From an uncultured Bacteroidota bacterium (GTDB lineage: Bacteria > Bacteroidota > Bacteroidia > Flavobacteriales > Flavobacteriaceae), in contig CACLGW010000002.1 of NCBI GenBank assembly GCA_902606525.1, positions 1-64,000 of the forward strand: DNA of 64,000 nt, written 5' to 3'. The translations under genes and the position numbers were made by a program. How positions within the stretch are numbered: position 1 is the stretch's first letter; the number at the start of each line of letters is the position of its first letter. Positions 11,142-14,970 of this stretch are shown here, in pieces. Under the pieces are notes generated by a model, which worked only from the letters and a program-made list of their open reading frames with translations, did no database searches and was not told where the DNA came from.

Positions 11142-11555
11142 ATGAAAAAAGATCAAGTATTATCAATAACTAACGGGATTTGTAAAAATACCTTAATGGA
11201 GACATTAAAAATTGAGTTTATAGATGTTGGAGACAAATTTCTTAAAGCTCGTATGCCAGTAAATTCAAGGGTTTATCAGCCAGATGGAGTTCTTCATGGA
11301 GGAGCTACCGCTGCACTTGCTGAAAGTGTAGGAAGTGCAGCTGTATTTGTTTTGAACAAAGATCCAAATATTCAAGTCCGAGGCATAGAGATTACTGCAA
11401 ATCATATAAAAAGTGTTGAGAATGGATATATTTATGCAACAGCTTCTCCACTGCATCAAGGAAGAACTATCCAATTATGGGAAATTAGAGTAGAGGATGA
11501 AAACGATACCCTGATTTCAATTTGTAAATTAACTACTTACAAAAAAAGAAAATAA
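11142..11555 (+). CDS. hotdog-fold PaaI/MenI-type thioesterase
   Basis: GVLHGGATAALAESVGSAAV motif; 137 aa; next to UbiA and MenE-like genes. Confidence 0.88.
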   Translation: MKKDQVLSITNGICKNTLMETLKIEFIDVGDKFLKARMPVNSRVYQPDGVLHGGATAALAESVGSAAVFVLNKDPNIQVRGIEITANHIKSVENGYIYATASPLHQGRTIQLWEIRVEDENDTLISICKLTTYKKRK

Positions 11556-11569
11556 TTTATTTCAGTAAT

Positions 11570-11597
11570 TTGTTGTTTAATATTTAGAATATATTTG
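11570..11597 (+). promoter_or_regulatory. Bacteroidota-type promoter TTG-N17-TATATTTG
   Basis: TTG 11570-11572, TATATTTG 11590-11597, 17 bp upstream of the PAS-UbiA ATG. Confidence 0.5.
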
Positions 11598-11614
11598 TTC
11601 AAAAATATATTAAT

Positions 11615-12961
11615 ATGAAAAGTGTTATCATTTGTGATATGGAGGGAGTGATTCAGGAAATCAATAAAGGGGCTCTCGAATTATTTGGTTATGATAAAGA
11701 AGAGCTCATAGGAAAAAAAAGAGTATCAATTTTTTCACCAGGAGAAATAGTCATTCAAAATGTTTTAGGTTGGTTAGAAAAGGCCAATAAAGAGGGCAAA
11801 TCATTGGTCAAAACTAACTTCATAAAAAAAGATGGTACCAAATTTAATGCTGAAATACTAATTACTCCTAATTTTGCGAATGGAAAAGATAAAGAGCAAA
11901 CCGGTTATTGTGGAATAACAAAAGAAATTAATGAAGATGTTAATATCCCGATAAACTTTTCAACTAAGATTTTTAAGGGTATTGCTATAACAAGAGGTGG
12001 TTTTACATTGGCATCTATATTACCTATGATTATCATTGCAATTTTATTAAATCAATTAAATTCTTTATCAATTATAAATACGATAATTTCTATAACTGGT
12101 ATCGTATGTCTTCATATTTTTGGAAATTTATATAATGACTATTTTGACGTAAGTTCTGGAACCGATGAAGTAAATAACGAATATTTTAATGTTGGTGATA
12201 AATCTTTAATTTTAAGGGGAGCTCAAATTTCAGGTGGTAGTAGAGCAATTGAATTAGGTCTTATCACATTAAATAAAACAAAAAAATTAGGAAACATAAT
12301 GTTACTAATTGCTTTAGCTTGCATTGTATTCCTATCAATAAGTATATTTTTAGAGACTAAATCTATTAATAATATTTATGGAATATTTACAATTGGTTTT
12401 TTAGGTTTAATATTAACATACTCTTATACAGCTAAACCTTTAAGGTTGTCTGCTAGAAGAGGACTAGGTGAGTTTGTTATTTTTTTAACCTTTGGGCCAT
12501 TACTAACTCTTGGTAGTGCTTTTGCAATGACAAATACCTCTCTTGATATAACATATAATGCTTTAAAGTTTTTTATATTTATTGGCATTCCTTTAGGATT
12601 ATTAACTACTAATATTCTTTTAATAAATCAATTTCCAGATTATAATTCAGACAAAAAATCGAATAAAATTAATTTAGTTGTTTTATTTGGAAAGAAACTT
12701 TCTAGATGGATTTATTTATTAAACTTAGTTTTAATTTTTTTAAGTACTTTCTATTTTATCCAAGAAATATCAAAATTTATTCCAGTATTCAACTACAATA
12801 GTTTTTATATTATTTTTTCAATAATTTTTGTATACGGGTTATATATTTTTAGTGGATTATTCAAATATTATGATTCAAGAAAACTAATTAATTATAACAT
12901 TCATACCATATATTATCAAATTATTTTTTGTTTGGGTTTAGTTTTGACCTTTTATATATAA
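11615..12961 (+). CDS. PAS domain fused to UbiA/MenA-family membrane prenyltransferase
   Basis: N-terminal PAS (~1-110: VIICDMEGVIQEINKGALELFGYDKEELIGKKRVSIF); C-terminal UbiA with Asp motifs NDYFDVSSGTDE and INQFPDYNSDKKSNKINLVV, multiple TM segments. Confidence 0.85.
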   Translation: MKSVIICDMEGVIQEINKGALELFGYDKEELIGKKRVSIFSPGEIVIQNVLGWLEKANKEGKSLVKTNFIKKDGTKFNAEILITPNFANGKDKEQTGYCGITKEINEDVNIPINFSTKIFKGIAITRGGFTLASILPMIIIAILLNQLNSLSIINTIISITGIVCLHIFGNLYNDYFDVSSGTDEVNNEYFNVGDKSLILRGAQISGGSRAIELGLITLNKTKKLGNIMLLIALACIVFLSISIFLETKSINNIYGIFTIGFLGLILTYSYTAKPLRLSARRGLGEFVIFLTFGPLLTLGSAFAMTNTSLDITYNALKFFIFIGIPLGLLTTNILLINQFPDYNSDKKSNKINLVVLFGKKLSRWIYLLNLVLIFLSTFYFIQEISKFIPVFNYNSFYIIFSIIFVYGLYIFSGLFKYYDSRKLINYNIHTIYYQIIFCLGLVLTFYI

Positions 12962-12973
12962 ATAGATATTAAT

Positions 12974-13876
12974 ATGTTTCTTAATCGAGTTTCAGGGTAT
13001 AAAAATCCATTCTGGATGTACCTGCTTGGTTCTTTTATTATTTTTATTTTTACGCTAATTGGTCAGTTGCCACTCACTTTTTTTATGACAAAAGAAAGAA
13101 TTGTAGATGCTAGTGGTGATCCCATGTTAGCATTAAGAAATTTAGATAAAAATTTACAATTACTTTTACTTTTAATCCCCTTTGCGGTTGGCTTTTTAGG
13201 ACTTTTATTGGTAGTAAAAAAAATTCACGGATTTAGTTTGAGAAGTATATCAACATCGCGTAATTCTTTAGATTGGAAAAGGATAATTTATGCCTTCATA
13301 GTTTGGAGTTCGATAACATTTTTATTGATCCTTGTTGATTATGCTATTAATCCCGGTGATTATCAATGGAATTTTAATTTTAATTCTTTTGCTATACTTC
13401 TTTTGATAGCGGTAGCTCTAATGCCTATACAAACTAGTTTAGAAGAATATATTTTCAGAGGATATTTAATGCAAGGTTTTGGAGTTTTATTTAAAAGTAG
13501 ATTAGGAGCATTACTTACTACCTCTTTAATTTTTGGCTGCTTACATTTTTATAACCCTGAAGTTGAGAAATTAGGTTATGGACTAATGATATATTACGTC
13601 GGGACTGGTTTATTTTTAGGAATATTAACTCTAATGGATGAAGGGATTGAACTCGCGCTAGGTTTTCATGCAGCAAATAATTTAGTTACAGCTTTGATGG
13701 TAACTTCTTCTTGGACTGTATTTCAAACAGAATCTGTTTTTATAGATGTTTCTGAGCCCTCTCTTGGTGGAGAAGTCCTAATTTCTGTATTTATATTATA
13801 TCCTTTTTTTATTTTTTTAATGTCTAATAGATTTAATTGGTCTGGATGGAATACAAAAATTACTTCTAAACTATAA
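12974..13876 (+). CDS. CPBP-family intramembrane glutamic endopeptidase-like protein
   Basis: EEYIFRGYLMQG, FGCLHFYNPE, GFHAANNL motifs. Confidence 0.88.
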   Translation: MFLNRVSGYKNPFWMYLLGSFIIFIFTLIGQLPLTFFMTKERIVDASGDPMLALRNLDKNLQLLLLLIPFAVGFLGLLLVVKKIHGFSLRSISTSRNSLDWKRIIYAFIVWSSITFLLILVDYAINPGDYQWNFNFNSFAILLLIAVALMPIQTSLEEYIFRGYLMQGFGVLFKSRLGALLTTSLIFGCLHFYNPEVEKLGYGLMIYYVGTGLFLGILTLMDEGIELALGFHAANNLVTALMVTSSWTVFQTESVFIDVSEPSLGGEVLISVFILYPFFIFLMSNRFNWSGWNTKITSKL

Positions 13877-13878
13877 TT

Positions 13879-14970
13879 ATGCAAACACCCCATTATTCAA
13901 AAATTCATAATCGTTTTCTTTTGAACGGTTATTTTTATGACAAAAACACCCTAAAAGAAGTTGCTTATGACTTTATCAAAGAGGGTGATGAATATGAATA
14001 TTTTTTAGGTGATTTCCTTTTAGATTGGTTTGATAATTCAGATTCTGTTTATCTTGAGAGTTCAGTAACTTCTCCTCAGCCTAAAAAATTTTTATTCAAA
14101 AAGCAGTCTCTTGTAAATAGTGCAATTTCTACAGGAAATTTCTTTGGAATAAGTGTTGGTGATAGTGCTTTACATTGCCTTCCAGCAAATTATATTGCAG
14201 GAAAGATGATGCTGATTCGTGCAATGATATTGGGTTTGGAAATTGATTTGATTTCACCTTCAAAAACCCCATTTCATAAAAATCAAAAAACTTACGATTT
14301 TGTAGCGATGACACCAACGCAAGCTTTTCATTCCCTATCAAATTTAAAAAAAGTAAAAAAACTTATTATAGGAGGCGCTTATGTTTCTTTAGCTCTACAA
14401 AAATCTCTTATTAATTCTAAAGTAAATGCATTTGAAACTTATGGTATGATGGAGACGTTATCTCATATTGCAGTTCGAACTATGCTTGATCCCGTATCTG
14501 AATTTAAATGTTTACCTGGCATTAAGGTTCATCATGACAAACGAAATTGTTTGGTAATCGACGCCCCTAATTTAAATCTTAGTAATCTAGTAACAAATGA
14601 TGAAGTGGAAATCATAAGCCCAAATCATTTTAGATTGATTGGAAGAATAGATAATATTATTTACTCAGGAGATTTAAAACTTCACCCCGAACAAGTAGAG
14701 CGTAAACTTTCTGAAAATCTTTCTTTTCATTTTTTTATAGATAGCATTTCAGATCCATTATTAGGTGAAAAGGTAGTATTAGTAATAAAAGATAACCCTA
14801 AAATTAAATTTGAGAAACTCCAAAAGCAGATTAAAAAGTGTAATCATCTTAAGCCTTACGAGGTTCCCAAAGCTGTAGTTTATTTTAAAGATTTTATCCA
14901 GACATACAGTGGAAAGGTAAAGCGAAAGGATACAATGTCTCAGAAACCACTACGAGTATTAAACTTGTAA
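13879..14970 (+). CDS. MenE-like AMP-binding (acyl-CoA ligase) protein with atypical P-loop
   Basis: YGMMETLSHIAVR, GRIDNIIYSGDLKLHPEQVE, YSGKVKRKDT; expected SGTTGxPK loop reads SVTSPQPK. Confidence 0.78.
   Translation: MQTPHYSKIHNRFLLNGYFYDKNTLKEVAYDFIKEGDEYEYFLGDFLLDWFDNSDSVYLESSVTSPQPKKFLFKKQSLVNSAISTGNFFGISVGDSALHCLPANYIAGKMMLIRAMILGLEIDLISPSKTPFHKNQKTYDFVAMTPTQAFHSLSNLKKVKKLIIGGAYVSLALQKSLINSKVNAFETYGMMETLSHIAVRTMLDPVSEFKCLPGIKVHHDKRNCLVIDAPNLNLSNLVTNDEVEIISPNHFRLIGRIDNIIYSGDLKLHPEQVERKLSENLSFHFFIDSISDPLLGEKVVLVIKDNPKIKFEKLQKQIKKCNHLKPYEVPKAVVYFKDFIQTYSGKVKRKDTMSQKPLRVLNL

Follow-up and report, generated by a model that had tools for sequence, protein, structure and literature searches.

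A PAS domain fused to a UbiA prenyltransferase occupies the position of the men gene block in marine Flavobacteriaceae

We found that a single gene in the window (the whole 64,000-nucleotide stretch of flavobacterial DNA that was analysed) encodes a PAS domain and a UbiA multi-helix membrane prenyltransferase in one chain, and that it lies where a genome of the same genus carries the five biosynthetic genes menF-menD-menB-menA-menC. The product, hereafter PAS-UbiA, very probably replaces MenA in the quinone pathway. As for our preferred reading as a whole, namely that PAS-UbiA is a quinone prenyltransferase standing in for MenA, that it works on a salvaged head group, and that its PAS domain is needed, we regard the case for it and the case against it as about equally weighty.

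The fusion gene and its distribution

The gene is a single uninterrupted open reading frame (ORF) of 448 aa with an ATG start (11615-12961, + strand), and the same ORF recurs in ~35 genomes, in line with the initial annotation, which had described one uninterrupted frame that encodes an N-terminal PAS fold and a UbiA prenyltransferase with both Asp-rich motifs. Its features are as follows.

11570..11597, + strand: promoter-like TTG-N17-TATATTTG site 5' of the fusion gene (TATATTTG box kept in relatives)
11615..12961, + strand: PAS-UbiA fusion gene, 448 aa (ORF, Pfam and TIGR profiles; full length in ~35 genomes)
11621..11929, + strand: PAS domain, residues 3-105 (Pfam PF13426, model topology, conservation, dN/dS)
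11633..11635, + strand: invariant Cys7, PAS strand A (alignment of 21 fusions; strand position in the model)
11909..11911, + strand: invariant Cys99, PAS strand I (alignment of 21 fusions; strand position in the model)
12020..12883, + strand: UbiA prenyltransferase domain, residues 136-423 (Pfam PF01040; Foldseek matches to UBIAD1 and AfUbiA)
12125..12166, + strand: first Asp-rich motif NLYNDYFDVSSGTD, residues 171-184 (invariant residues match MenA positions)
12626..12652, + strand: second Asp-rich motif NQFPDYNSD, residues 338-346 (the MenA equivalent is NNxRDxxxD)

Profile searches placed both domains above their cut-offs, with PAS_9 (PF13426) scoring 40.6 bits against 27 over residues 3-105, TIGR00229 (sensory_box) 42.2 bits against 22.9, and UbiA (PF01040) 69.2 bits against 34.2 over residues 136-423. 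Consistently, the AlphaFold2 model (21 natural homologues as input; mean pLDDT 77, pTM 0.76) has the complete PAS order of strands 3-8 and 12-16, four helices, and strands 63-70, 76-86, and 97-105, with the helical membrane bundle of UbiA lying C-terminal of the PAS fold. In Foldseek comparisons, the PAS half matched 3lyx (TM 0.81, target-normalised), and the UbiA half matched UBIAD1 (8djk) and archaeal UbiA (4tq4). Among 21 aligned fusions, N171, N174, D175, D178, and D184 of the first motif and N338, D342, and D346 of the second are invariant. Together, these results confirm the presence of a PAS domain and a UbiA prenyltransferase in one chain. The promoter attributed to the gene by the initial annotation corresponds to the promoter-like site listed above, and most near relatives retain its TATATTTG box in the same position (L002, L003, L008, L021, L006, and L019; L018 has TACATTTG instead).

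The existence of related fusions in other Flavobacteriia, which had been surmised, was also established, and their spread reaches beyond the Flavobacteriaceae. A scan of genome contigs recovered ~20 marine Flavobacteriaceae-type records with the full-length fusion (single-cell genomes, MAGs, and one record with a 1.13 Mb contig), together with one Saprospiraceae MAG. The fusion is present in 6 of 151 sampled Flavobacteriaceae genomes, and the phylum sample placed it in two further families as well (f25 and f15), for a total of ~35 Bacteroidota genomes with this architecture. Because the architecture is conserved in ~35 genomes of several families, including single-cell and long-contig assemblies, we rejected an assembly artefact or a frameshift as its origin. 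A phage-borne cassette was likewise rejected, since one scan of viral contigs found the fusion on none of them.

A single gene in place of the men block

In G138, a genome of the same genus, the gene order is leu genes-rluA-panB-dnaK-menI-menF-menD-menB-menA-menC-CPBP-menE-PCCB-ABCF (menF and menC checked by Pfam), and G140, from a second genus, has the identical men arrangement between dnaK and PCCB. The window keeps the G138 gene order, but menF-menD-menB-menA-menC are replaced by the PAS-UbiA gene alone (menI-fusion-CPBP-menE), whose product is only 26% identical to the MenA of G138. No remnants of menF, menD, menB, or menC were found in the window or in the fusion loci L002-L021. The flanking features in the window are the following.

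11142..11555, + strand: menI-like hotdog thioesterase gene, left anchor of the canonical men locus (71% identical to G138 menI)
11255..13205, + strand: cassette shared with L002, approximate extent (DNA identity 81-92% versus 54-85% outside; trees)
12974..13876, + strand: CPBP intramembrane protease-like gene, right anchor of the men locus (PF02517, 57.2 bits; 64% identical in G138)
13879..14970, + strand: menE-like gene with eroded adenylation motifs (profile, comparison with G138)

The MenE adenylation motifs are intact in G138 and L002 and eroded in the window, L008, L021, and L016; in the window, TSGTT has become SSVTS, SGG has become SGD, and YGMTET has become YGMMET. Erosion of this kind accords with a DHNA pathway that is dead in the window clade; read simply, MenE decays once the men block is lost. 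The eroded MenE-like protein stays in frame in these four loci, with a dN/dS of ~0.12-0.13. The CPBP gene lies 3' of the fusion in every sufficiently long Flavobacteriaceae locus (window, L002-L021) and persists in loci that lack menI as well as menE (L011-L013, L020). In menE-less lineages, an alpha/beta hydrolase gene is found downstream of CPBP (L011:8509-9471, PF00561 at 94 bits in L011; also L010, L012, L013, and L020).

A tree of seven flanking proteins requires at least three changes of state between men block and fusion, and a single clade of fusion genomes was rejected. More specifically, a grouping of L002 with the window is excluded for the flanking genes (p-AU 0.0002); in one tree, the flanking genes of L002 group with G138 (81/81), a placement that is not decisive. 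In the tree of the fusion gene itself, L002 is the sister of the window (100/99). The segment that the two share is ~2 kb long and holds the 3' part of menI, the fusion, and the 5' part of CPBP. At least one exchange is thus the transfer of a ~2 kb cassette, which, on a simple reading, entered the L002 lineage recently through recombination in menI and CPBP. A swap independent of the men-locus replacement took place within one genus of f25, in which G241 has the order ubiE-menA-pyrE and G383 the order ubiE-pyrE, with the fusion in both; in G383, menA was lost from beside ubiE.

The UbiA and PAS halves compared with known proteins

The initial annotation had called the protein UbiA/MenA-type, and this held insofar as the enzyme is a quinone-type UbiA in MenA's place; the UbiA half, however, forms a subfamily of its own outside the MenA clade. 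The 21 fusions formed their own group in the tree (92/93), as did the MenA-type sequences (100/100), E. coli MenA among them. MenA models scored best but stayed far below cut-off (TIGR00751, 54 versus 102; TIGR02235, 73 versus 225), and the f25 and f15 fusions reached at most 121 bits against a MenA cut-off of 264. Compared with MenA (models TIGR00751, TIGR02235, and PRK06080), the fusion has the same UbiA fold, both Asp-rich motifs, an R210 equivalent, the YT motif, and the metal/prenyl-diphosphate residues, and it is found in the same gene neighbourhood and is interchangeable with MenA across genomes. Unlike MenA, it adds an N-terminal PAS domain and an insert after the first motif, forms a separate clade, reaches no MenA cut-off, and occurs in genomes without DHNA synthesis. 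Positions fixed in MenA are changed in the fusions (R82, P85, Y154, N205, R207, and T219, in E. coli MenA numbering), so that the second motif reads NQxPD and not NNxRD (N205 to Q339, R207 to P341); Q339 is present in 20 of 21 fusions and P341 in all 21, versus N and R at these positions in 47 of 47 MenA-type sequences. PAS-UbiA very probably acts in MenA's place, yet judged by its sequence (clade, score, and second motif) it is not a MenA.

As these MenA-fixed positions are changed, the acceptor may not be DHNA. Cyanobacterial MenA, however, uses DHNA and likewise deviates from NNxRD; the residue changes in the fusion therefore do not settle the acceptor. The acceptor-side differences from MenA would also suit a different quinone derived from an aromatic acid already in the cell (e.g., homogentisate or 4-hydroxybenzoate), for which a single-gene cassette would suffice; 4-hydroxyphenylpyruvate dioxygenase (HPPD) is present in f25 genomes, and the f25 loci L147, L148, L149, and L152 have, within a few kb of the fusion, a gene that resembles homogentisate 1,2-dioxygenase (judged by its sequence start only). 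Such a quinone is nevertheless quite improbable, given that MenA models (up to 121 bits) score far above those for homogentisate or 4-hydroxybenzoate prenyltransferases (16-30 bits) and that HPPD was found neither in the window genome nor in most flavobacterial fusion genomes, G137 being the only one with it. On the latter ground, the homogentisate route was rejected. In a separate case, the closed 2.2 Mb genome G198 (f28), which is without menD or MqnA/D, contains a 457-aa reading frame for a UbiA protein (L159, C1:583951-585015) ~4 kb from HPPD (C1:579358-579987), and its quinone could be derived from homogentisate.

Among solved structures, UBIAD1 (8djk), the vertebrate menaquinone-4 prenyltransferase, is the closest relative of the UbiA half in sequence and one of the closest in fold, and it resembles PAS-UbiA, as read here, in acting on a head group that it does not make. 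It has no PAS domain, differs from the fusion in motif details, and keeps NNxRD. Unlike in the UBIAD1 case, the bacteria with the fusion keep UbiE, an indication that their head group is not methylated.

The PAS half has a dN/dS of 0.017-0.032, close to that of dnaK, compared with ~0.09-0.10 for the UbiA half, and 32 of its 106 positions are invariant across 21 fusions, including Cys7 and Cys99. Its slower rate of change relative to the UbiA half indicates that the PAS half is probably essential; conservation this high is unusual for an appended sensor and points to either a fixed ligand or a need for the domain in catalysis. We infer from the model that Cys7 and Cys99, on strands that neighbour each other in PAS folds, may pair. 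In LOV domains, the photoactive cysteine belongs to a GRNCRFLQ-like motif on helix E. As the initial annotation had remarked, this signature is absent; the region reads GKKRVSIFSPGE, and Cys7 and Cys99 are the only invariant cysteines in the 21 fusions. Nor is there a proximal histidine of the heme PAS (FixL/DosP) type among the invariant or 90%-conserved PAS positions of these fusions. With the matching residues absent, a LOV or heme PAS was rejected, and no feature was seen that would mark a cofactor. The domain shares its fold and Pfam family with the PAS domains of NifL (2gj3) and CPS_1291 (3lyx); it differs from these sensors in that it (i) sits on a membrane prenyltransferase and not on a kinase, cyclase, or regulator; (ii) has two invariant cysteines and neither the LOV cysteine nor the heme-ligand histidine; and (iii) evolves more slowly than its partner domain. 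The domain may be a ligand or redox binder needed for activity, a proposal with equal chances of proving right or wrong. In agreement with the initial annotation, which knew of no functional description of the architecture, we found none in the searched literature (most subscription journals being outside its coverage), nor any paper that joins PAS domains with menaquinone prenyltransferases or that presents a PAS domain directly on a membrane quinone-lipid enzyme.

Quinone-pathway genes and the origin of the head group

Profile searches found menD over the cut-off in none of 35 fusion genomes (13, plus 11 from f25 and f15, plus 11 further, with the repeats G066 and G096 counted once) and menB in none of 13, the f25 and f15 genomes lying outside the 13; the same searches recovered both genes from the canonical relatives G138, G022, and G023. 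These absences come from profile searches of mostly incomplete genomes, which is offset by the numbers and by the complete f25 genomes: the 11 fusion genomes of f25 and f15 are 99-100% complete, and G214 is a closed single contig. The window genome is 57% complete, and the argument rests on its intact locus and on its relatives. An ordinary MenA with a sensor that tunes it to redox state or oxygen, as the initial annotation had proposed, the DHNA being made normally elsewhere in the genome, would agree with the location of PAS and prenyltransferase on one chain and with the general capacity of PAS domains to bind cofactors and ligands. This arrangement is disfavoured, and we consider it highly improbable, because menD and menB are absent as described, the men locus itself has lost five genes, and the UbiA half falls outside the MenA clade.

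Nor was the futalosine route found: MqnA/D (PF02621) was present in none of the 13 window-clade and L022 genomes and not in the closed genome G214. Weak matches to PF02621 (28-36 bits) occur in three f25 genomes. Each f15 fusion genome has one match, at 100 bits in L136 (G252) and 70 bits in L137 (G391). Another gap in the quinone pathway was observed in the f25 genome G256 (L187), which has menA beside ubiE and is without menD, MqnA/D, and PAS-UbiA.

In every fusion genome tested, ubiE/menG was present. Respiration requires isoprenoid quinones, and G151 retains a cluster of cytochrome c oxidase genes (Cox3/Cox4/SCO1) next to heme O synthase; with these genes kept, a quinone is presumably still needed. 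A non-quinone enzyme, whose UbiA half would make another prenyl lipid while complete quinones were obtained from outside, would accord with the many acceptors prenylated by the UbiA superfamily and with the identity of the best solved relatives (UBIAD1 and, in fold, archaeal lipid synthases). We hold it to be the least probable of the readings considered here, in view of the men-locus placement in Flavobacteriaceae, the fact that G383 has lost the menA gene next to ubiE, and the constant retention of UbiE.

In our preferred reading, with PAS-UbiA standing in for MenA, the cell would no longer make a DHNA-type naphthoquinol head group and would instead take it up from its surroundings; PAS-UbiA would attach the polyprenyl chain to the salvaged head group, and UbiE would then methylate the prenylated product to yield menaquinone. 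The PAS domain would bind a small ligand (the scarce head group, a quinone, or a redox signal via Cys7/Cys99) and would be required for activity, not an optional regulator. Salvage is proposed by analogy with Porphyromonas pasteri, which has retained menA and ubiE alone and can grow when DHNA is provided (PMC9704088). As in the fusion genomes, DHNA-auxotrophic Porphyromonas and Tannerella lack menF, menD, menC, menE, and menB and keep a prenyltransferase and UbiE, and the men block has been gained or lost horizontally; unlike the fusion genomes, Porphyromonas and Tannerella retain an ordinary menA, and no PAS fusion is described (PMC9704088). On this analogy, a salvaged DHNA-type substrate is as plausible as its opposite. 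Several points count against the preferred reading: (i) the UbiA half lies outside the MenA clade, with MenA-fixed positions changed; (ii) menI is still under purifying selection (dN/dS) despite the loss of MenB; (iii) G256 is without the fusion and menD but keeps a canonical menA, and therefore pathway loss in f25 needs no fusion; and (iv) no DHNA transporter was identified. In addition, we know of no source of DHNA in seawater.

The gene content would also suit a third de novo pathway to menaquinone or another naphthoquinone, with PAS-UbiA as its prenyltransferase and head-group genes that go unrecognised elsewhere in the genome. The ~35 genomes, from several families, lack menD, and those tested lack menB and MqnA/D, yet prenyltransferase and UbiE are kept; one of these genomes, G214, is the closed single contig; and the changed acceptor-side residues fit a different acceptor. 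Moreover, a recent survey (Chobert et al. 2026, PMC13386864) reported lineages without known quinone pathways and, for Gloeobacter, inferred that menaquinone is made by an alternative route. In L002, however, the block was replaced by a ~2 kb one-gene cassette, so that a multi-gene pathway would need to have been in place beforehand, and no candidate head-group genes were found next to the fusion, its neighbours in f25 being housekeeping genes only. We consider such a pathway unlikely, although it deserves attention. A third isoprenoid-quinone route in Bacteroidota, whose novelty would lie in the pathway to the head group or in the quinone itself, in which one transferred cassette can displace the five-gene DHNA block and the PAS domain takes a direct part in handling the aromatic precursor, is possible if somewhat doubtful.

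The difference between near relatives at one locus, with five biosynthetic genes in some and one fusion gene in others, constitutes a natural experiment. Lineages without a recognised quinone pathway are an open problem (Chobert et al. 2026, PMC13386864), and within the Bacteroidota PAS-UbiA marks such lineages, small-genome marine Flavobacteria among them. If salvage of the head group is true, these bacteria would rely on neighbouring organisms for the vitamin K2 core; if it is false, a third pathway or a new quinone awaits discovery.
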